Positions 1,124 to 12,506 of a DNA stretch of 64,000 bases are shown here, piece after piece. The translations under genes and the position numbers were made by a program. The stretch comes from Kiloniellaceae bacterium (lineage in GTDB: Bacteria; Pseudomonadota; Alphaproteobacteria; Kiloniellales; J153): positions 1 to 64,000 of the forward strand of contig JAJFGL010000055.1 in NCBI GenBank assembly GCA_021776135.1, given 5' to 3'. Every line of letters starts with the position of its first letter. Position 1 is the stretch's first letter. Under the pieces are notes generated by a model. It made no database searches. It saw only the letters and a program-made list of their open reading frames with translations, and was not told the DNA's origin.

Positions 1124-1377
1124 CCGAGGAAGCTACAAATAGCGCTCCCAGCGCTTAAGCAATTTTACTCTGACAAAGCCTGTTTGGCGGATACCACCCA
1201 GAAAAGCGCTATATGCGTGATAAGAATGCCAAAGGCACCCGCCAGAACTAAATGTAGGATCTGGATACCTCGCCGCCGGGCGCTTGTATTGCCCGGCAGC
1301 CGGCTACTGACAATCCCGTAATATTGCAGTAACGTATTGCCGTCTTTAGCCAATCGACGGTGGAATTGGTGATCATC

Positions 1378-2112
1378 ATGTCAGGGGCCAATCCAGAGGC
1401 CTCAGAGACAGAACATCGAACCGCGCTAAAACCGTTGCCCGGCCTTCAACTGGCTGCAAGCGAGCGGTTATTGGCTCGATGCCGCGGTATTATGATACCG
1501 GCTGGACAGAGACTGTTCGATCAGGGCTCACTTCACACCTGCACCTACATCGTCGAGGAAGGGTTGGTCCGAACTTATTATTGTGCGTTGTCGGGTCGTG
1601 AGATCACACTTGGTTATTGGTCGGAAGGCAATCTAGTAGGCGGGCCGAATTTCTTCGGTGGCGGTTATCACATCTGGTCGGGAAAAGCCGTGCGCAAGAC
1701 CCGGGTGCTCGCGATCGGAGATTCCGATCTGAAGCAGTTGGCGACGCACGACCCAGATATCCTTTTTTGGGTAGCGGAGGCCATGGCCTTCAAGCTGCGT
1801 TGGTTGTCAATTCTGTTTCAACTGCACGGCACAGAGCCAGTGCGCCAGCGCCTTGCTAAAATACTCGTCATGCTGAGTGATATCTATGGCGCACCCGAGG
1901 ACGACCGAAGCGGTGGCGCAATCACCATCAAGCATAAGATCAGTCAAAGCGATCTAGCAACGCTGGTTGGTGCCTCGCGGCAGTGGACCAACAAGACTCT
2001 GAACGAACTGCAAGAACTCGGTCTGATCACGTTGGCTAACCGGCAAATCCGGATCCTTAACTTGCAGGGCCTCAACGCCATGAGCAGCGAAGAGATGGAT
2101 TTCGTTGATTGA
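1378..2112 (+). CDS. CRP/FNR-family transcriptional regulator
   Basis: This protein of about 244 residues has the CRP/FNR layout: an N-terminal cyclic-nucleotide-binding-type beta-roll (roughly residues 25-140, with IMIPAGQRLFDQGS and YIVEEGLVRTYY), a long dimerisation helix, and a C-terminal winged HTH (SQSDLATLVGASRQWTNKTL). The phosphate-binding pocket lacks the Arg-Ser pair that holds cAMP in Escherichia coli CRP; the equivalent stretch reads GGGYHIWSGK, so cAMP is unlikely to be its effector. There is no N-terminal cysteine cluster of the FNR type. ATG 1378 is preceded by GGTGA at 1368-1372; GTG 1360 is an in-frame alternative. It is the first gene of the accessory cluster and is the obvious candidate to bind the two CRP-type dyads at 2560 and 6615. 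Its ligand is unknown. Confidence 0.9.
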   Translation: MSGANPEASETEHRTALKPLPGLQLAASERLLARCRGIMIPAGQRLFDQGSLHTCTYIVEEGLVRTYYCALSGREITLGYWSEGNLVGGPNFFGGGYHIWSGKAVRKTRVLAIGDSDLKQLATHDPDILFWVAEAMAFKLRWLSILFQLHGTEPVRQRLAKILVMLSDIYGAPEDDRSGGAITIKHKISQSDLATLVGASRQWTNKTLNELQELGLITLANRQIRILNLQGLNAMSSEEMDFVD

Positions 2113-2802
2113 AGAGCCATCAGTCGGCTAACGCCGCGCCTGAACACGCTATCTCCGCGTCCGGCCGGACTGGCCGACACTGGGCGATTATCAGCATGCT
2201 TCATACTTAAAACCGCCTCGTATCGAGCAAGGTTGCGTTCGTTTTACAACACGACCCGTCGAGCCTCGAGATCGCGCTCGCATGTTAGTCCGACGACGTT
2301 TTAGTTAGTAGCCTTTAGCTCTTCGGTACGGATGAGCGAGACACTGACAAAGCCACTGCACCTTGCGCTTTTCCCACTGAAGAACCGGCAACTCCCAGCA
2401 CTCAACATGAACCACAAATTGCCGAGTGGTAACAAAGCCGTCACCGACTGCCATTAGACCCGGAACCTCGAGATGGGCAATCTACCACCCTATGTTGCGG
2501 TGCAACCAACGAGCAGGGAAATCAGAACATTGTATTGAGGCCGGCACTGAAACTCCGCATTGTCAACTGATTGACAGCGCGCCAATCCAGTGTGGGCGAC
2601 AGTTGTGTCACCTAATAGTCCCAAGACGAGGACGTACGGATGGGGATGGATTAGTCGCCGGAACGGTTTGTTAGATAAAAATCGATGCGAACGGCCGGAG
2701 ACCGTACATCAATACATGCCCGTTCGTATCTCGTTCGGTATTGCCCTAACCGGGCCGGTAAAAAATAACCAAGAACTAATGCAAGTGTAGCGGAGGCGCA
2801 TT
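2113..2802 (+). other. Long intergenic leader before the TRAP permease gene
   Basis: No open frame in these 690 bases looks like a gene: the small frames have no ribosome-binding site and no recognisable motif. The stretch holds a CRP-type dyad (2560-2577) and ends with a good Shine-Dalgarno sequence, GGAGG at 2792-2796, before the TTG start of the permease gene. By eye it is less GC-rich than the core genome to the right. No clear sigma-70 -10 element could be assigned, although the right arm of the dyad forms a TTGACA hexamer. Confidence 0.6.
2560..2577. promoter_or_regulatory. CRP/FNR-type operator, copy 1
   Basis: The sequence TTGTCA-ACTGAT-TGACAG is a dyad with 6-nt spacing. Its core TGTCA-N6-TGACA has the geometry of CRP-family sites (CRP itself uses TGTGA-N6-TCACA). 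A second copy sits at 6615-6632, sharing TGTCA, the spacer half TGAT and TGACAG. This copy lies about 225 bp upstream of the TRAP permease start. The right arm contains TTGACA, a sigma-70 -35 hexamer, so the site may overlap a promoter. Confidence 0.6.
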
Positions 2803-4773
2803 TTGGAGCGAGTTGTCAGTCTGGCGTTGTACACGATTGTCGTCTTCGCGGCGGTCTACCAGATGGCCGCGATCCTTTACCCACTACAAGGTGCGCTGGA
2901 GTTCTATTACTTCCACCTTGGGTTGGTTCTGGTCATCGTCACCTTTGACATAGCGCGGACCAAAGCTGGCGAGTCGGATTCGTTTCACCGTGGCGTGTGG
3001 CTTGCGATTCTCTCAATCGTAGGCGGTCTCGCCATTGGCGCCAGCGCCTACCTCTATCTCAACATCGGCGAAATCGAATTCCGGCAACCCTTCATTACGG
3101 AAGTGGATTTCGCCGCGGGCGCCATTCTGATCGGCTGTGTCTTGGTGCTCACGTATCTGGTTTGGGGCGGGATTTTGACCGGAGTCATCGCCCTCGGAAT
3201 TCTCTATTTCATATTTGGGGATCTGTTGTCAGGGGCGATGCATTACAGGCCGCCCGAGAGCGAGATCATCATGAGCTACCTCGCCGGCATGGGCGGTGCA
3301 CGAGGTGTAATCTGGGGAATTCCCCTGTCCGCCAACACGTTGTTCTTAATCATTGTGTTTGGCGGCTTGCTCAAGGGGACTCGGATTCTTGAGTTGTTCA
3401 ACGAAGTTGGCAAACTGCTCCTTGCCGTCAGCCGCGGTGGGATCTGCTACTCCTCGATCCTGGCCAGCACGGCAATCGGCATGGTAACGGGCCAGGCGGT
3501 CGCCAACGTTGCCCTGTCAGGGTCCGTGACGATCCCCTCCATGAAGCAACGCGGCCTCTCCGGCGCACAGGCCGGCGCGGTCGAGGTTGTGTCCTCGCTC
3601 GGCAGTCAGATCATACCGCCGATCATGGGGCTCGGTGGATTTTTGATGGCCGTGAATCTCGGGGTGCCTTACGCGGATATTGCCACGGCGGCAATTATCC
3701 CTGCGGTGCTGTTTATTGCGATCCTATTCGTTGCCGCTTACTTCCTCGCCGAATCGATACCGTCACTCAAAATCCGGTCGGAGAGCGTAGACAAAGGAAG
3801 CATTCTTTGGATGCTCCCCTCATTCCTAACCTCCTTCGGTACCCTGCTCGCCCTGCTCTACCTGCGTTTTTCGCCGGGCTACGCGGCATTTTGGGCAATC
3901 CTGCTGTTGGTTAGCCTGTCGTTCGCACGCCCCGCCGCGTACCGGCCCACGTTTAACGATTTGTTCTCTGGACTGGTCTACGGCGTCGTCTCCGCCGCCA
4001 ACCTCGGTCTTATCCTCGCCGGAATCGGCATCTTGATCCAGGTTCTGGTGACCACCGGCGCGGGCTTCAATCTTGGCCGTATCATCATGCTTGCAGCGGG
4101 CGATAACGTCGGCCTGGCCTTGGTTCTGGGCATGGTGTTGTCGCTGATCATCGGTCTGGGTTTGCCAACACCCGCCGCCTACGCACTGAGCGCGATAATC
4201 ATGATCCCATTCCTCGTGGATATGGGCGTCACACCGATCGTGGCACATTTCTTCGGCTTCTATTTCGCGATCTTTTCGGCAGTTACGCCGCCGGTTGCCG
4301 TGGGAGTCATGGCAGCAACGCGCATATCGGGCGCCTCGTTCTACGAGACCGTCATCCAGTCCGGGAAAATGGCCTTGGTCCCGGTTTTGATACCCTTCAC
4401 CTTCGTCGCATATCCCAACGTGCTCGAGTTTCCGGCGATCACTGTCGAGACGACCGTCGTCTGTCTTGCGCTTCTGGCAACAACTGCAATGTGGGGAGCG
4501 TCAATCTACGGTGTGATAGGTCGTCATCTGAACTGGCTGGAGCGCTCAGGGTTCTTGCTTGGGCCGGCCCTCTACCTGGCATTGCTCATCACCAAAGACC
4601 TAATCTACGCAGCACCCATCCTGGTCGTAGCAACCGCAATGGTGGTTCTCCGAGTGTTGGTTGCGCAACGGCAACGCGGAGCAGTGATGTTTCGAGCGAT
4701 GACCGCGGAACAGCAGCACAGAGCAACAGAGACCGCAGTGACGCCCAAGGCCCGTGCGGCGCCGAGCGAGTAA
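2803..4773 (+). CDS. TRAP transporter fused permease (DctQM-type, TAXI class)
   Basis: This 656-residue, very hydrophobic protein has about 16 predicted membrane spans. It matches the fused form of TRAP transporter in which the small four-span subunit (residues ~1-110) is joined to the large twelve-span subunit. Family signatures visible are GTRILELFNEVGKLL, the stretch at 3477-3540 encoding TAIGMVTGQAVANV, GSQIIPPIMGLGGFLMA, and GLGLPTPAAYALSAII. Such permeases use an ion gradient to import organic acids delivered by a periplasmic binding protein; the matching TAXI-type protein is two genes downstream. The start is TTG, supported by GGAGG six bases upstream. The C-terminal ~60 residues are hydrophilic. 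The cognate substrate cannot be read from the sequence. It heads the first transcription unit of the cluster. Confidence 0.93.
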   Translation: MERVVSLALYTIVVFAAVYQMAAILYPLQGALEFYYFHLGLVLVIVTFDIARTKAGESDSFHRGVWLAILSIVGGLAIGASAYLYLNIGEIEFRQPFITEVDFAAGAILIGCVLVLTYLVWGGILTGVIALGILYFIFGDLLSGAMHYRPPESEIIMSYLAGMGGARGVIWGIPLSANTLFLIIVFGGLLKGTRILELFNEVGKLLLAVSRGGICYSSILASTAIGMVTGQAVANVALSGSVTIPSMKQRGLSGAQAGAVEVVSSLGSQIIPPIMGLGGFLMAVNLGVPYADIATAAIIPAVLFIAILFVAAYFLAESIPSLKIRSESVDKGSILWMLPSFLTSFGTLLALLYLRFSPGYAAFWAILLLVSLSFARPAAYRPTFNDLFSGLVYGVVSAANLGLILAGIGILIQVLVTTGAGFNLGRIIMLAAGDNVGLALVLGMVLSLIIGLGLPTPAAYALSAIIMIPFLVDMGVTPIVAHFFGFYFAIFSAVTPPVAVGVMAATRISGASFYETVIQSGKMALVPVLIPFTFVAYPNVLEFPAITVETTVVCLALLATTAMWGASIYGVIGRHLNWLERSGFLLGPALYLALLITKDLIYAAPILVVATAMVVLRVLVAQRQRGAVMFRAMTAEQQHRATETAVTPKARAAPSE

Positions 4774-4810
4774 TCGGCGCCAAACGTTCGACAAACATAA
4801 GGAGACCAAA

Positions 4811-5506
4811 ATGCCCAAGACTTTACTATTCGATACCTGGGGAACTCTCGTCGACAACTACTCTATCGCCGATGTAATCGAGCCTTATGTGTTCGAATCC
4901 CACACCGCCCAGAAGATCTCGGAGGATTGGCGGTTCCAACATAAATGGGCGATGTTCTATCTGACCTTGTGCGATTCCTTCGTTCCGCACCCCGGCCTCA
5001 ACGAAGCCTGCCTGCGCTGGGCGCTGGACCTGCATCACGTCGAGCTTTCGGATGAGGCGATCAAGGACATCAACGCCCAATATCACAAGCTGCGCGCCTA
5101 TCCCGACGTGGTCGGTGCCCTCAAGGCGCTCAAGGAGCAGGGCCTCACGATCAAGATCATCGCCAATCCGACGAAGAAGATGATCGAGGATCACAGTAAG
5201 TTTGCTGGCACGCGGCCCTATATCGATGAAATCATCAGCTCCGGAGAGGAAGCCAAGGCATTCAAGCCGTCACCCAAGGTCTATCAGCTGGGTATCGAAC
5301 GGGCCGGTTGTCCCAAGGAAGACATTCTGTGGGTCACGAGCCACTTCTGGGAGGCCGTCGGCGCCGTTCGCCAGGGCTTGAGAGTTGCTTGGACTAACCG
5401 TGCACGCCAACCTCCGTTGAAGATCGGCATCAAGCCGACATACACAACGAAGAACCTACAGGAGTTAGCCGACATCCTAACGGCAGAGCAGGAGCGTAAG
5501 CAGTAG
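4811..5506 (+). CDS. HAD-superfamily hydrolase, 2-haloacid dehalogenase-like
   Basis: This protein of about 231 residues starts at ATG 4811 behind AAGGAG and resembles the type II L-2-haloacid dehalogenases. Motif I is LLFDTWGTLVD with the nucleophilic Asp, followed by an Arg in EDWRFQHKW, motif III Lys in AFKPSPKVYQ and a motif IV region WVTSHFWEAVGA. Compared with the well-studied L-DEX enzyme, three catalytic-pocket residues differ: the motif II Ser is Ala (IIANPTKK), the Asn of motif IV is His, and the following Asp is Glu. The core nucleophile, Arg, Lys, Tyr and one Ser are kept. It should therefore be a hydrolase of a related but different substrate, perhaps a substituted organic acid brought in by the flanking TRAP system. 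It sits between the permease and its binding protein, presumably co-transcribed. Whether it really dehalogenates is uncertain. Confidence 0.85.
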   Translation: MPKTLLFDTWGTLVDNYSIADVIEPYVFESHTAQKISEDWRFQHKWAMFYLTLCDSFVPHPGLNEACLRWALDLHHVELSDEAIKDINAQYHKLRAYPDVVGALKALKEQGLTIKIIANPTKKMIEDHSKFAGTRPYIDEIISSGEEAKAFKPSPKVYQLGIERAGCPKEDILWVTSHFWEAVGAVRQGLRVAWTNRARQPPLKIGIKPTYTTKNLQELADILTAEQERKQ

Positions 5507-5559
5507 CCCGCGCTCAAACCACCAGAACATAAATCAGACAAGACAATAGGGAGGAAGCC

Positions 5560-6597
5560 ATGCAGATCAATATAAGGTCGACGGTCCAGAGAGCCAGCGC
5601 GATGGTGCTGGCTACGGTCTTGGCGATCCTGGTAGCCAGCGCGGCCAGCGCCGAACCCAAAACCGTGCGGATATTGATGTCGCCCAGCGGATCCGGGCCT
5701 TACAACGCTTTTGCTACGATTCAGACACATATGGAGGAGTTCTCCGACAAGCTTCGACTGAGCGTTGAGGAAACTCCTGGATTTAATTTCAACGTGAAGT
5801 ACATGGCAGCCCATCCGGATCGGTTTAACGATACTGTTTTCGGTTCCGGTACGGTGCTCGATTGGGCCGCGAAAACCGGCCAAGCGCCGTTCTACCCCGA
5901 GCCTTTGAAGGCCGCTGCCGACTTCCGCGTGATTGGGGTGCTTGGCCTTACTTATAACGTGTGGGTGACAACCGATACAGCGATCAAGGGGCCGGACGAT
6001 TTCGTCGGCAAGCGTGTCGGCATCGGGCTCTTGACTCAGAACGAATGGGGCATGCACCAGCGCATGCTGCTCGATGCTTGGGGCTTGACGCCAAAGCTTA
6101 GCAGCCTCGATACACTCGGCACGTCGGCGAATATCCAGGCGCTGCTCGATGGACGGACCCACGTTGGCACGCTATTCGGCCTGACCAGCGCCGACGGTGC
6201 GCATACGGTGGTGACGGGACCGCACCGCCAGCTCGAGGCCTCGAACCGCGATTGGCGTTATGTCGTCGTGCCTCCAGCGATGATCGAGGGCTACATTGCC
6301 AAGACCGGTGCGCCATTCCGTGTCGTAGACTACGCGCCGAGGACTCTGCCGAACCAGCCGGACCGGCTAACGACATTTGGCGATGTGCTTCTGCTCGAGG
6401 CGCACAAATCGTTCCCGGATGATGCCGCCTACGAACTGGTTCGTGTGCTCGTTGCGAACTACGAGAAGATTAGCAAGTACAGCGCGCTGACTCGTGTCTG
6501 GAGCGGAACTACCTTGGCTTATACCGCAGATACCAAGGCCGAGCTATTTCACCCGGGTGCACTCAAGGCATATCGGGACCTTGGCCTGATCAAGTGA
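5560..6597 (+). CDS. TAXI-family TRAP solute-binding protein
   Basis: This 345-residue exported protein has a Sec signal peptide (about residues 1-31, cleavage after ASAASA). The mature part resembles the TAXI family of TRAP binding proteins: VRILMSPSGSGPYNAFATI at the start, an N-lobe segment FRVIGVLGL.YNVWV, GPDDFVGKRVGIG and SANIQALLDGRTHVGTLFG. These proteins capture an organic anion in the periplasm and pass it to the fused TRAP permease, encoded here by the gene at 2803. ATG 5560 is preceded by GGGAGG. It is the last gene before the second operator, so the unit permease-HAD-TAXI appears to end here. The insert between permease and binding protein is unusual, because the two are normally adjacent. 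Confidence 0.9.
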   Translation: MQINIRSTVQRASAMVLATVLAILVASAASAEPKTVRILMSPSGSGPYNAFATIQTHMEEFSDKLRLSVEETPGFNFNVKYMAAHPDRFNDTVFGSGTVLDWAAKTGQAPFYPEPLKAAADFRVIGVLGLTYNVWVTTDTAIKGPDDFVGKRVGIGLLTQNEWGMHQRMLLDAWGLTPKLSSLDTLGTSANIQALLDGRTHVGTLFGLTSADGAHTVVTGPHRQLEASNRDWRYVVVPPAMIEGYIAKTGAPFRVVDYAPRTLPNQPDRLTTFGDVLLLEAHKSFPDDAAYELVRVLVANYEKISKYSALTRVWSGTTLAYTADTKAELFHPGALKAYRDLGLIK

Positions 6598-6614
6598 TCT
6601 GGCCGCCGGACGAT

Positions 6615-6632
6615 CTGTCAGGTGATTGACAG
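6615..6632. promoter_or_regulatory. CRP/FNR-type operator, copy 2
   Basis: CTGTCA-GGTGAT-TGACAG is a perfect 6+6 inverted repeat with a 6-nt spacer, and matches the dyad at 2560-2577 at 15 of 18 positions. It lies just after the TAXI gene stop and about 195 bp before the molybdoenzyme start, in the only long gap between the two halves of the cluster. The right arm again creates a TTGACA hexamer, with GGTCTA at a plausible -10 distance. The local CRP-family protein is the likely ligand (inference). Confidence 0.65.
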
Positions 6633-6826
6633 AATGCGCCCCACTTCGGGTCTAAGCTTCATCCATCTTCCGATGCGGTGCGGCAACCGAAGCGATAAAG
6701 CGTCTGGTGAGCCCGGCGAGACGTCGTTGATCCGGATCTGCCAGGCTAAACGATGCCGATTTTCTACCAGGGCATGGCCGGCCCCGGAGGTGTAAGCCAC
6801 GTTAGGCAATAGGGGAGGAAAGAAAA

Positions 6827-8275
6827 ATGACAACGAAAAGCCAGAGGCCGGAGGTGGTCCACGACTACCCGGATACCTCCGCATACGATCCCAAAACTCG
6901 ACGCATGATGGATACGATGATTGCGGCAGAGCGACGCTTTCTCGCTGAGCGCGAGCTTGAAGAATGCGAGTGCAAAGACGGAATGTTCCCCAATCCGGCG
7001 GCAAGCGTGACGAGCCGCAGGGGATTTATGGCAGGTACGGCCATCGCTATGGCGACGGCGGGCGCGTTACCTAGGCTGGCAAGCGCCGCCGCGCCGCCCG
7101 GTGCGGTCGAATACGCGGTGCCCGAGGATCCGACCAAAGTGCAGGGCCGGCCGATCGCGCAAGACGGTGGTTACGGTACCCGCTCGCAGTTCGAGACCGA
7201 GGTGCGTTGGCGCTTCCCGACAAAGACGCTCGAATCGTCATGGACCATGACACCTCTCGACAAAAGCCGGGGTATGGTTACGCCCTCCGGCCTGCATTTC
7301 GAACGTCACCACGGCGGCATCCCGACAATCGATCCGGCACGGCACACGCTAACCGTACACGGCATGGCGAAGCGGCCAAAGAAATACACGATGGCAGACT
7401 TGATGCGTTTTCCGTCGGTGACGCGTTTTCACTTCATCGAATGCTCCGGCAACACCTTCACCGAATGGAAGCAAGCGATGATGAAAACCGTGCAGGTGAC
7501 GCACGGATTGACCAGCACGTCGGAATGGACCGGCGTACCACTTTCTACGATCCTCAGCGAGGTCGGTATCAAGGATGGGGCCGCCTGGATACTTGCCGAG
7601 GGCGCAGACGCGGCTGTCATGACGCGCAGCATCCCGATCGACAAGTGCTGGAGCGACGCAATGCTGGTCTACGCGCAGAACGGCGAGGCGCTCAGGCCAG
7701 AGCAAGGTTATCCGCTCCGGCTCCTGCTTCCGGGCTGGGAGGGGAATACTCACATCAAGTGGCTCAGGCGACTCGAAATCAGCGACAAGCCGTTCATGAC
7801 GCGCGAGGAAACGTCGAAATACACCGACCAGGTCAAGATTGGGTTGGCGCGACAGTTCACCTTCACGATGGAAGCGAAGTCGGTGATTACCTTCCCATCG
7901 GGCGAGATGAAGCTACCCGGCCCGGGGTTTTATGAGGTGACCGGCATTGCATGGTCCGGACGCGGCAAGATACAGCGGGTCGAGATCTCAACCGATGGCG
8001 GCAAGATCTGGCACTTAGCGGCGTTGCAAGGCCCTGTCCTGCCGATCAGCCACACGCGATTCCGTTTCCCGTGGAAGTGGGATGGCACGCCCGCGATGCT
8101 GCAAAGCCGTTGCATCGACGAGACCGGCTATGTTCAGCCGACGATACAGGATCTCGTCGCAGCACGTGGCGTCGACGGACATCCTAAATTCGGCTCCATC
8201 TATCATAACAACGGGGTGCAGACTTGGCTGATCAACCCCGATGGATCGGTCGTAAACGGTAACCACCAGGCGTGA
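6827..8275 (+). CDS. SoxC-like molybdenum sulfite-oxidase-family oxidoreductase, Tat-exported
   Basis: This 482-residue protein belongs to the sulfite oxidase family and resembles the SoxC group. The catalytic domain carries HFIECSGN, whose Cys is the expected molybdenum ligand, then TSTSEWTGVPLSTIL, GYPLRLLLPGWEGNTHIKWLRRL and a C-terminal Mo-co dimerisation domain (GIAWSGRGKIQRVEISTDGG). A Tat signal, SRRGFMAGTAIAM, begins only at about residue 63. It is preceded by a charged leader containing EECECKDG, an unusually long n-region. ATG 6827 has GGGGAGG upstream. The enzyme should act in the periplasm, passing electrons to the cytochrome encoded next. The substrate could be sulfite released during organosulfonate breakdown, but the family includes other activities, so this is not proved. 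Confidence 0.9.
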   Translation: MTTKSQRPEVVHDYPDTSAYDPKTRRMMDTMIAAERRFLAERELEECECKDGMFPNPAASVTSRRGFMAGTAIAMATAGALPRLASAAAPPGAVEYAVPEDPTKVQGRPIAQDGGYGTRSQFETEVRWRFPTKTLESSWTMTPLDKSRGMVTPSGLHFERHHGGIPTIDPARHTLTVHGMAKRPKKYTMADLMRFPSVTRFHFIECSGNTFTEWKQAMMKTVQVTHGLTSTSEWTGVPLSTILSEVGIKDGAAWILAEGADAAVMTRSIPIDKCWSDAMLVYAQNGEALRPEQGYPLRLLLPGWEGNTHIKWLRRLEISDKPFMTREETSKYTDQVKIGLARQFTFTMEAKSVITFPSGEMKLPGPGFYEVTGIAWSGRGKIQRVEISTDGGKIWHLAALQGPVLPISHTRFRFPWKWDGTPAMLQSRCIDETGYVQPTIQDLVAARGVDGHPKFGSIYHNNGVQTWLINPDGSVVNGNHQA

Positions 8276-8331: not shown

Positions 8332-8907
8332 ATGCTTATGCGGTTTTTTCCAACTAGTGCGATCGGGACGTGTGTTTGGTTAGCGATCTTCGCGGCCGTA
8401 GCATTGAGCGTTCCGGCAAGCGCCCAAACATTCGATTTCGGCACGGCACCGACGGCGGCCGAGATCGCGGCGATTAACATCGACGCCATGCCCGATGGCC
8501 GCGGCCTGCCGGCTGGCAAAGGCACGCCGTCCGAGGGCAAGGCAATCTATGTGGACAATTGCGCTGCTTGCCATGGAACCGATCTTCAAGGTGTGAAGGA
8601 TGCGGGTGGCGCACCGCTGGTCGGTGGGCGAGGCTCGCTCATGAGCGGCAGCCCGAAGAAAACCATCGAGAGTTACTGGCCGTATGCGACCACCGTCTTC
8701 GATTATGTGAAACGGGCGATGCCATTCAACGCGCCGGGCTCGCTGAATGACAATCAGGTCTATGCGGTTACCGCCTATATCTTGTACCGCGGCGACTTGA
8801 TTGGCGAAGGCGACATCATAAACGCCAAAACGCTGCCGCGTGTGGACATGCCCAACAAGAACGGTTTCATCGCCGACCCCCGGCCCGACGTCAACACCTA
8901 TCGCTAA
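8332..8907 (+). CDS. Mono-haem c-type cytochrome (SoxD/SorB-like electron acceptor)
   Basis: This protein of about 191 residues starts at ATG 8332 behind GGGAGG and has a Sec signal peptide ending near SVPASA. A single haem-binding motif CAACH occurs in YVDNCAACHGTDLQG. A distal Met for the sixth ligand is plausible in VKRAMPFNAPGSL, followed by VYAVTAYILYRG. This is the arrangement of the small cytochromes that partner SoxC-type molybdoenzymes. It is shorter than classical SoxD, so it is not a standard SoxCD subunit. It lies 56 bases after the molybdoenzyme and is surely co-transcribed. Expected role: periplasmic electron acceptor carrying electrons to the terminal oxidase chain. Confidence 0.9.
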   Translation: MLMRFFPTSAIGTCVWLAIFAAVALSVPASAQTFDFGTAPTAAEIAAINIDAMPDGRGLPAGKGTPSEGKAIYVDNCAACHGTDLQGVKDAGGAPLVGGRGSLMSGSPKKTIESYWPYATTVFDYVKRAMPFNAPGSLNDNQVYAVTAYILYRGDLIGEGDIINAKTLPRVDMPNKNGFIADPRPDVNTYR

Positions 8908-9011: not shown

Positions 9012-9890
9012 ATGACCGAGACCAAACCTCGGAAGAAGGTAACGATCCGCACCTTACAGAAGAAGATGCGCGATGGCGAAGCGATCACACAAATGGCAGT
9101 CTACGACTATCGCACGGCGGTGGTGTCGGACCGCTTGGGCATGGATATCCTGTGCGTCTCGGACACCGGCGGTATGATCTTGTTCGGGCATCAGAGTACA
9201 GTCACGGTAAGCTTCGACGAGGTAATGATGATGTCCAAGGCGATCGACCGGGGCAGCCAATATGGGCTGCGTATGGTCGACATGCCGTATTGGAGCTTCC
9301 ACGTCTCGCCTGAACAGGCGGTCGAAAACGCCGGTCGTTTCGTCCATGAAGCCAACGCGGAAGTCATGAAGTGCGAGGGCAATCAACATCATGCCCGGAA
9401 TATCGAGGCCATCGTCAAGGCCGGCATTCCGGTACAAGGTCATATCGGCATCACCCCCATGCGCATGCCGCAATTGGGCGGCTTCGTCGCCCAGGGCAAG
9501 ACCGCTGAGCGGGCCAAAGAACTAATTGAAGACGCCCAGGCCTTCGCGGACGCGGGCTGCTTTTCCATCCTGTGCGAGGTCACAACCGCGGAAGTCTGCG
9601 AATATCTGACCGAGACTCTGCCAATTCCGGTGATCAGTCTGGGCGCCGGCAATAAAGCACACGGCGTGCACATCATCAGCTCCGACTTATTCCATCTGTG
9701 GGAGGAGCACGTACCGCGCCACTCGAAGATCTACACCGATCTGATTCCCATCATGGAAGATGTGATCACGCGCTACATGGACGACGTGCGTGCCAGGGCC
9801 TATCCGGGTCCCGAGCATACCGTGTATATGGCGGAGCAGGAATTGCGGAAGTTCGCCGATATGGTGGGCTGGAAGACTAAGCTCACGTAA
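9012..9890 (+). CDS. PanB-like ketopantoate hydroxymethyltransferase homologue
   Basis: This 292-residue TIM-barrel protein is a divergent member of the PanB family (3-methyl-2-oxobutanoate hydroxymethyltransferase), within the PEP mutase/isocitrate lyase superfamily. The expected metal and catalytic residues can be aligned: Asp in LCVSDTGGM, Asp in MVDMPYWSF, Lys and Glu in VMKCEGNQ, His in VQGHIGITP, Glu in SILCEVTTAEV and the ISLGAG loop. LGGFVAQGKT also matches PanB. The protein is less similar to PanB than a pantothenate enzyme would normally be, and it sits in a catabolic cluster with no panC. A C1 transfer or retro-aldol step on a 2-oxo acid is therefore more likely than vitamin synthesis (inference). 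ATG 9012 follows GGGAGA. Confidence 0.83.
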   Translation: MTETKPRKKVTIRTLQKKMRDGEAITQMAVYDYRTAVVSDRLGMDILCVSDTGGMILFGHQSTVTVSFDEVMMMSKAIDRGSQYGLRMVDMPYWSFHVSPEQAVENAGRFVHEANAEVMKCEGNQHHARNIEAIVKAGIPVQGHIGITPMRMPQLGGFVAQGKTAERAKELIEDAQAFADAGCFSILCEVTTAEVCEYLTETLPIPVISLGAGNKAHGVHIISSDLFHLWEEHVPRHSKIYTDLIPIMEDVITRYMDDVRARAYPGPEHTVYMAEQELRKFADMVGWKTKLT

Positions 9891-11950: not shown

Positions 11951-12062
11951 AGGAGCTACGCGAGATAGCTTGGAATACAGCCGCTCGTCATTGTGCCCCT
12001 CGCCCGTGTCACACCAATATCAGATGTTGTGCTTGGGACAAGAGAGGCGCTAGACTTTTAGC

Positions 12063-12245
12063 AGCGTCGGTTCCCTTCGGGGAAGTAAGAGGGAACAGGG
12101 AACGATTGGGCTGCTGTCAAGCGGACTAATTGAAGCCCTGGCTGCCCCCGCAACTGTAAGCGGCGAACGCGCCCAACTATGGCCACTGGGAAACCGGGAA
12201 GGCCGGGCAAGCGTCGAGACCCGCGAGCCAGGAGACCTGCCGTCG
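12063..12245 (+). promoter_or_regulatory. Cobalamin (adenosylcobalamin-class) riboswitch
   Basis: The leader carries the conserved B12-riboswitch blocks in order: GGTTCCCTTCGGGGAA with AAGAGGGAACAGGGAA, then GCTGCCCCCGCAACTGTAAG, the GCCACTGGG helix, and the B12 box GCCAGGAGACCTGCC at 12227-12241. It lies about 260 nt upstream of the btuB start. Binding of cobalamin is expected to shut off the downstream uptake operon. The expression platform is within 12246-12506, where GC-rich pairing segments occur, but whether control is at transcription or translation cannot be decided by eye. Confidence 0.95.
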
Positions 12246-12506
12246 CCAGCGTCACCCAACCGCGGACCGGGGTGTGTCAGTGGGACGGAAACCCGTTTGC
12301 GGTGACGCGCGAAAGCGTGTCGTTGTTGGGGCTTCTGGTTTTGGGTGACCATGTTTCCGGATCTATCGCAAGCAAATGGCCCGTGGTTTTTGGGCTCATG
12401 AACTTGCGCGCGTGGGTGGCGAGCCTTTCCGGCCGCGTTTGGCTGGACATTGCTGCCCTGCATCCCCGATCGCGTCTTGAAACCTCAAGAACGAAAGGGG
12501 CCAGAA

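Follow-up and report, generated by a model that had tools for sequence, protein, structure and literature searches.

The 64,000-nucleotide stretch of DNA analysed here (the window) contains a gene for a CRP/FNR-family regulator followed by two groups of genes, each preceded by a near-identical palindrome, and the question that this locus raises is whether the two palindromes are operators of the adjacent regulator and how they would act. The original prediction had placed a pair of such sites at 2560 and 6615, and a sequence check found them there as TTGTCAACTGATTGACAG (palindrome 2561-2576) and CTGTCAGGTGATTGACAG (6616-6631). We consider it very probable that both sites are operators of the adjacent regulator, which would be a dedicated regulator, independent of cAMP, that activates both units from a class II position. 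The features of the cluster are listed in Table 1.

Table 1. Coordinates of the regulator gene, the operators, the predicted promoter elements and the genes of the two units in the window
Feature	Position	Strand	Remarks
CRP/FNR-family regulator, 250 aa from GTG 1360 (ATG 1378 possible)	1360-2112	+	Pfam HTH_Crp_2, cNMP_binding
Operator 1, TGTCAACTGATTGACA	2561-2576	+	Before TRAP-HAD-TAXI; exact palindrome, orthologue conservation, promoter spacing
Predicted -10 GACAGT, promoter 1 (weak)	2598-2603	+	xAxxxT 21 nt after operator
Fused TRAP transporter permease (TIGR02123), first of unit 1	2803-4773	+	65% identical homologue in L058
Type II HAD-like hydrolase	4811-5506	+	79-83% identical in all five orthologous loci
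TAXI-type TRAP substrate-binding protein	5560-6597	+	Pfam NMT1_3 above cut-off, TIGR02122 below
Operator 2, TGTCAGGTGATTGACA	6616-6631	+	Before SoxC-like/cytochrome c genes; exact palindrome, promoter spacing
Predicted -10 TAAGCT, promoter 2	6653-6658	+	xAxxxT 21 nt after operator
SoxC-like molybdopterin sulfite dehydrogenase (TIGR04555), first of unit 2	6827-8275	+	
Cytochrome c, after SoxC-like gene	8332-8907	+	
PanB-like (ketopantoate hydroxymethyltransferase family) protein, probably unit 2	9012-9890	+	

The exact form of the site, TGTCA-N6-TGACA, was found twice in the window against 0.01 expected, a count reached in 0 of 100 shuffles, and its restriction to the two promoter gaps of the region, as originally proposed, held throughout the 64 kb, where there is no other exact copy. 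With up to two mismatches allowed, 15 matches were obtained against 11.5 expected; this count is near chance, and thus only the exact form is informative. The whole 3.96-Mb genome contains three exact sites, two of them here, and no match to the reversed-pattern control, with about 0.6 exact sites expected by chance (scaled from the window shuffles). The many random matches across the genome that had been named beforehand as an argument against a regulon were not seen. The window's regulator gene itself has no exact site upstream.

No recognisable relative of the regulator was found in 60 other genomes of the order, and 384 other genomes of the class sample yielded only four, with 37-41% identity over the aligned part. 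The first four class relatives, at 34-39% identity, have no exact site. A scan of 84,980 species genomes with an alignment-based profile returned 80 relatives; a contig scan with the single protein returned none. The results showed that the regulators of five orthologous loci (L055-L059, labelled Hyphomicrobiales, Rhodospirillales, Rhodospirillaceae and Gammaproteobacteria) group with the window regulator in a single clade (support 100/100) and have the helix SRQWTN(K/R) in common with it, identity to the window proteins being 45-60% for the regulator and 79-83% for the neighbouring HAD-like hydrolase. An exact palindrome lies beside the regulator or the HAD/TRAP genes in four of the five (L056, L057, L058 and L059), and L055 carries a degenerate site, TGTCAACTGGTTGATT, between regulator and HAD. 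In L058, where the order is regulator-TRAP-HAD-TAXI, the site precedes the regulator; L056 and L059 each carry a pair, of which the second member precedes the transporter part. A SoxC half beside the regulator was seen in none of the other loci, so that operator 2 has no orthologous counterpart at this gene. A search of 388 genomes of the phylum gave no new HAD orthologue.

Three more distant relatives (L060, L095 and L132), with the helix RQWVT, stand in a different gene set and likewise carry a pair of sites per locus. One site precedes the gene for a 446-aa protein, which is followed by a GcvT-like gene and then the regulator; the other lies in the interval that separates the regulator from a sulfonate-type ABC transporter. 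The two-site layout is seen again in L056, L059, L060, L095 and L132. The 446-aa protein (L060:4529-5860, L095:1964-3298, L132:6298-7638) is 79-83% identical among the three loci and gave no match in Pfam, NCBIfam or the PDB. In a word test, TGTCA-N6 was present near the regulator in eight of nine loci, and in 200 shuffles over seven spacings no word reached more than three loci; three of the nine (L060, L095 and L132) had been picked for carrying sites, and the unbiased set is the window with the five orthologous loci, four exact and the fifth degenerate. The claim that the sites define a regulon thus appears to be borne out by their rarity and by conservation at orthologous clusters, the point on which it could have failed: the site is kept in other genera and classes.

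The 15 sites were oriented by their downstream genes and aligned blind to any -10. The result showed a consensus of TGTCAA-N4-TTGACAG, the G after the right arm being present in 14 of the 15 sites, operator 1 included. The pattern xAxxxT was located exactly 21 nt downstream of the operator in 12 sites (binomial p ~5e-13, corrected for 48 offsets) and at 22 nt in four, while other offsets mostly gave 0 or 1 site, on average less than one in 15; the +21 rule was missed by L058, L060:7822 and L056:1749. Among decoy sites the +21 pattern was found in 7 of 94, three of these chosen for it (Fisher p 6e-9). The TTGACA string noted earlier in each right arm is real, and its role as a -35 box was rejected, with -10-like hexamers lying 21 nt, not ~17 nt, after the arm; since xAxxxT was found 15-19 nt after the arm in none of the 15 sites, TTGACA is read as operator sequence. 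Because the hexamer occupies +22 to +27 past the site, the operator centre falls at -41.5 relative to the predicted starts, which is the class II position of CRP (PMC5957442). Transcription is predicted to start near 2610 (promoter 1) and 6665 (promoter 2), with long predicted leaders of ~160-190 nt. The CRP-family geometry of the original prediction is backed by this spacing and by the recognition helix described below.

The third genomic site (G000:C1:21744) lies close to the end of a contig, next to an IS transposase, and lacks xAxxxT at +21 in both orientations; it was ruled out as a regulon member for want of this hexamer and, given also its location, is probably a chance occurrence. When 385 genomes of the class were searched for the complete operator together with its -10, only window site 1 and two others were returned; these two have no related regulator or cluster gene nearby and were taken as chance. 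In L153, a site with one mismatch precedes a MucR-like ORF and has xAxxxT at +21; it was also judged to be chance. Among wider relatives with the RQW motif, we also observed related boxes such as GGCAATTAATTGAC, as well as variant boxes of about CAA-N4-TTG (e.g. CAATTAATTG) with xAxxxT at +21 at L061:95, L118:88, L108:6198 and L011:6734. The variant boxes possibly reflect a common code in which the outer half-site is less strict.

The regulator scored above the Pfam cut-offs for PF00027 and PF13545, as a member of the CRP/FNR superfamily does, and its predicted structure showed a CRP fold (mean pLDDT 88), the nearest solved structures being MtbCRP and GlxR (Z ~23, rmsd ~3 over ~219 residues). 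Its recognition helix is VGASRQWTNKTL, and the site is found with those orthologues that share this helix. The specific base contacts of CRP are made by Arg180, Glu181 and Arg185 (PMC12531629). The regulator has Arg, Gln and Lys at these positions, its helix being R180-Q181-W compared with R180-E181-T in CRP. We take Glu181 to govern the half-site position that is G in CRP and C here. The genome encodes six HTH_Crp_2 proteins above the cut-off, of which only the adjacent regulator has an RQW-type recognition helix, the other five having Glu at position 181. As RQW had been built into the search pattern, the invariance of this motif among 81 proteins partly reflects how they were selected.

The cAMP contacts E72, R82 and S83 are replaced in the regulator by G, I and W; Trp is present at position 83 in 81 of 81 family members, and Y74, Y86, W87 and H104 vary little or not at all among the 81 relatives. 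The NCBIfam CRP score was 48 compared with a cut-off of 266, and the features of a cAMP-responsive CRP were lacking, both the cAMP contacts and the combination of E181/R185 with TGTGA half-sites. As the cAMP contacts are lost, the regulator should answer to a ligand other than cAMP. The family alignments contain no invariant or nearly invariant Cys, the residue on which the Fe-S assignment of FNR depends, and an FNR-type cluster is therefore unlikely. No paper on this regulator or box was found in the open-access literature.

The system resembles E. coli CRP at class II promoters in family, fold, the 16-bp palindrome (5-bp arms, 6-bp centre) and the centre at -41.5, but differs from it in having TGTCA instead of the TGTGA half-site, Q181/K185 instead of E181/R185, and replacements at the cAMP contacts E72/R82/S83. 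The CO-sensing activator CooA has Gln in place of CRP Glu181 and heme ligands of the Cys75/His77 type. The regulator family has no conserved Cys, in the sensor domain or elsewhere, and one conserved His (H104), and the cluster contains no coo genes and no CO dehydrogenase. The outer half-site TGTC is common to both systems, whereas the inner bases are GG in CooA, for which the published consensus is TGTCGGCnnGCCGACA (PMC545781), and AA here. The FNR/FixK/DNR family has the same fold and spaced palindromic operators, but its TTGAT half-site is not used here and its conserved Fe-S Cys are missing from the present regulator. CprK, the halorespiration activator, is likewise of the CRP/FNR type; it responds to a small organic substrate and turns on catabolic genes via a palindrome (PMC2610375). 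The present system, as proposed, is similar, but the CprK box is TTAAT-N4-ATTAA, and there is no reductive dehalogenase in the present cluster.

The same data bear on other readings of the two sites. Were the regulator a repressor that blocks polymerase at both sites, the TTGACA of the right arm would be the -35 of the blocked promoter; repression is possible for CRP-family proteins and TTGACA is a perfect -35 hexamer, but xAxxxT at 15-19 nt in 0 of 15 sites and at 21 nt in 12 of 15 corresponds to the class II activator position and is unfit for a TTGACA -35, which makes repression improbable. It is harder still to believe that a different CRP/FNR-type regulator of the genome reads the sites. 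The genome does encode six HTH_Crp_2 proteins above the cut-off, but the helices of the five others are FNR/FixK-like (TxExxSR) or CRP-like (TRETVAR), for which the known members of the family lead one to expect TTGAT or TGTGA as the half-site; in addition, the site tracks the orthologues of the adjacent regulator across classes.

That the palindromes arose by chance, or are repeats carried by mobile elements, is scarcely credible. An IS6 transposase gene (425-1123) does flank the cluster and the third genomic copy is near another transposase-like ORF, but the sites are rare, conserved across genomes and fixed in their distance from the -10, and the 15-site alignment shares little past the operator and the -10. 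This explanation is in the main refuted by the conservation.

Activation by the adjacent regulator would proceed as follows. Bound to its ligand, the dimer would sit on TGTCAA-N4-TTGACAG, with the operator centre at -41.5, and would bring RNA polymerase to a class II promoter that has its -10 at 21 nt past the operator; uptake and the HAD hydrolase (2803-6597) would thus be co-induced with SoxC-like/cytochrome c/PanB-like oxidation (from 6827). The inducer may be the compound taken up or a product derived from it. We infer the binding, the activation and the co-induction of both units from the DNA. The type of control is ordinary; the binding code is undescribed.

The HAD-like hydrolase scored above the cut-off of TIGR01428 (NCBIfam). 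Compared with L-DEX, whose catalytic set we take to be D10, S118, S175, N177 and D180 with their respective roles, it keeps the nucleophilic Asp, D10, and S118A, S175T, N177H and D180E are present in all six orthologues. Because of these substitutions, its reaction is probably other than standard dehalogenation. A hexapeptide-repeat protein is perhaps also part of unit 2. The PanB-like protein has 82-85% identical copies in two other genomes (G271 and G360), in a neighbourhood whose genes look by eye like those for formate-THF ligase, FolD and formate dehydrogenase; this suggests that the protein may act in one-carbon transfer and not in pantothenate synthesis. It is speculative to name a one-carbon or organosulfur compound as the substrate. 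Loose pointers in this direction are the SoxC-like protein with cytochrome c, the sulfonate-type transporter and GcvT-like protein of the second group, the neighbourhood of the PanB-like copies, and a methanethiol-oxidase-like SBP56 gene near L057 that is below the NCBIfam cut-off.

In a wider reading, to which we give slightly less than an even chance, an undescribed CRP/FNR branch, with the R-Q-W motif and the aromatics Y74, Y86, W87, H104 and W106 at the cAMP site of CRP, would read TGTCAA-N4-TTGACAG and class-II-activate uptake and catabolism of a one-carbon or organosulfur compound, one clade using a HAD protein whose catalytic residues are changed, another the 446-aa protein without family match. 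The locus itself provides, from sequence alone, a predicted regulon whose operator, promoter spacing and regulator are defined, and a prediction on recognition, namely that Gln at CRP position 181 goes with C for G in the half-site. The operator could be used to find more genes of the HAD/TRAP/SoxC and GcvT-like/446-aa/ABC pathways.

No plasmid records with the cluster were found. The IS6-family transposase gene is on the minus strand at the cluster edge. Since no other sampled genome of the order has the regulator, its horizontal gain is suggested. Further downstream in the window, a cobalamin riboswitch (12051-12258; Rfam RF00174, 109 bits) was observed upstream of an ORF resembling a TonB-dependent (BtuB-like) receptor.
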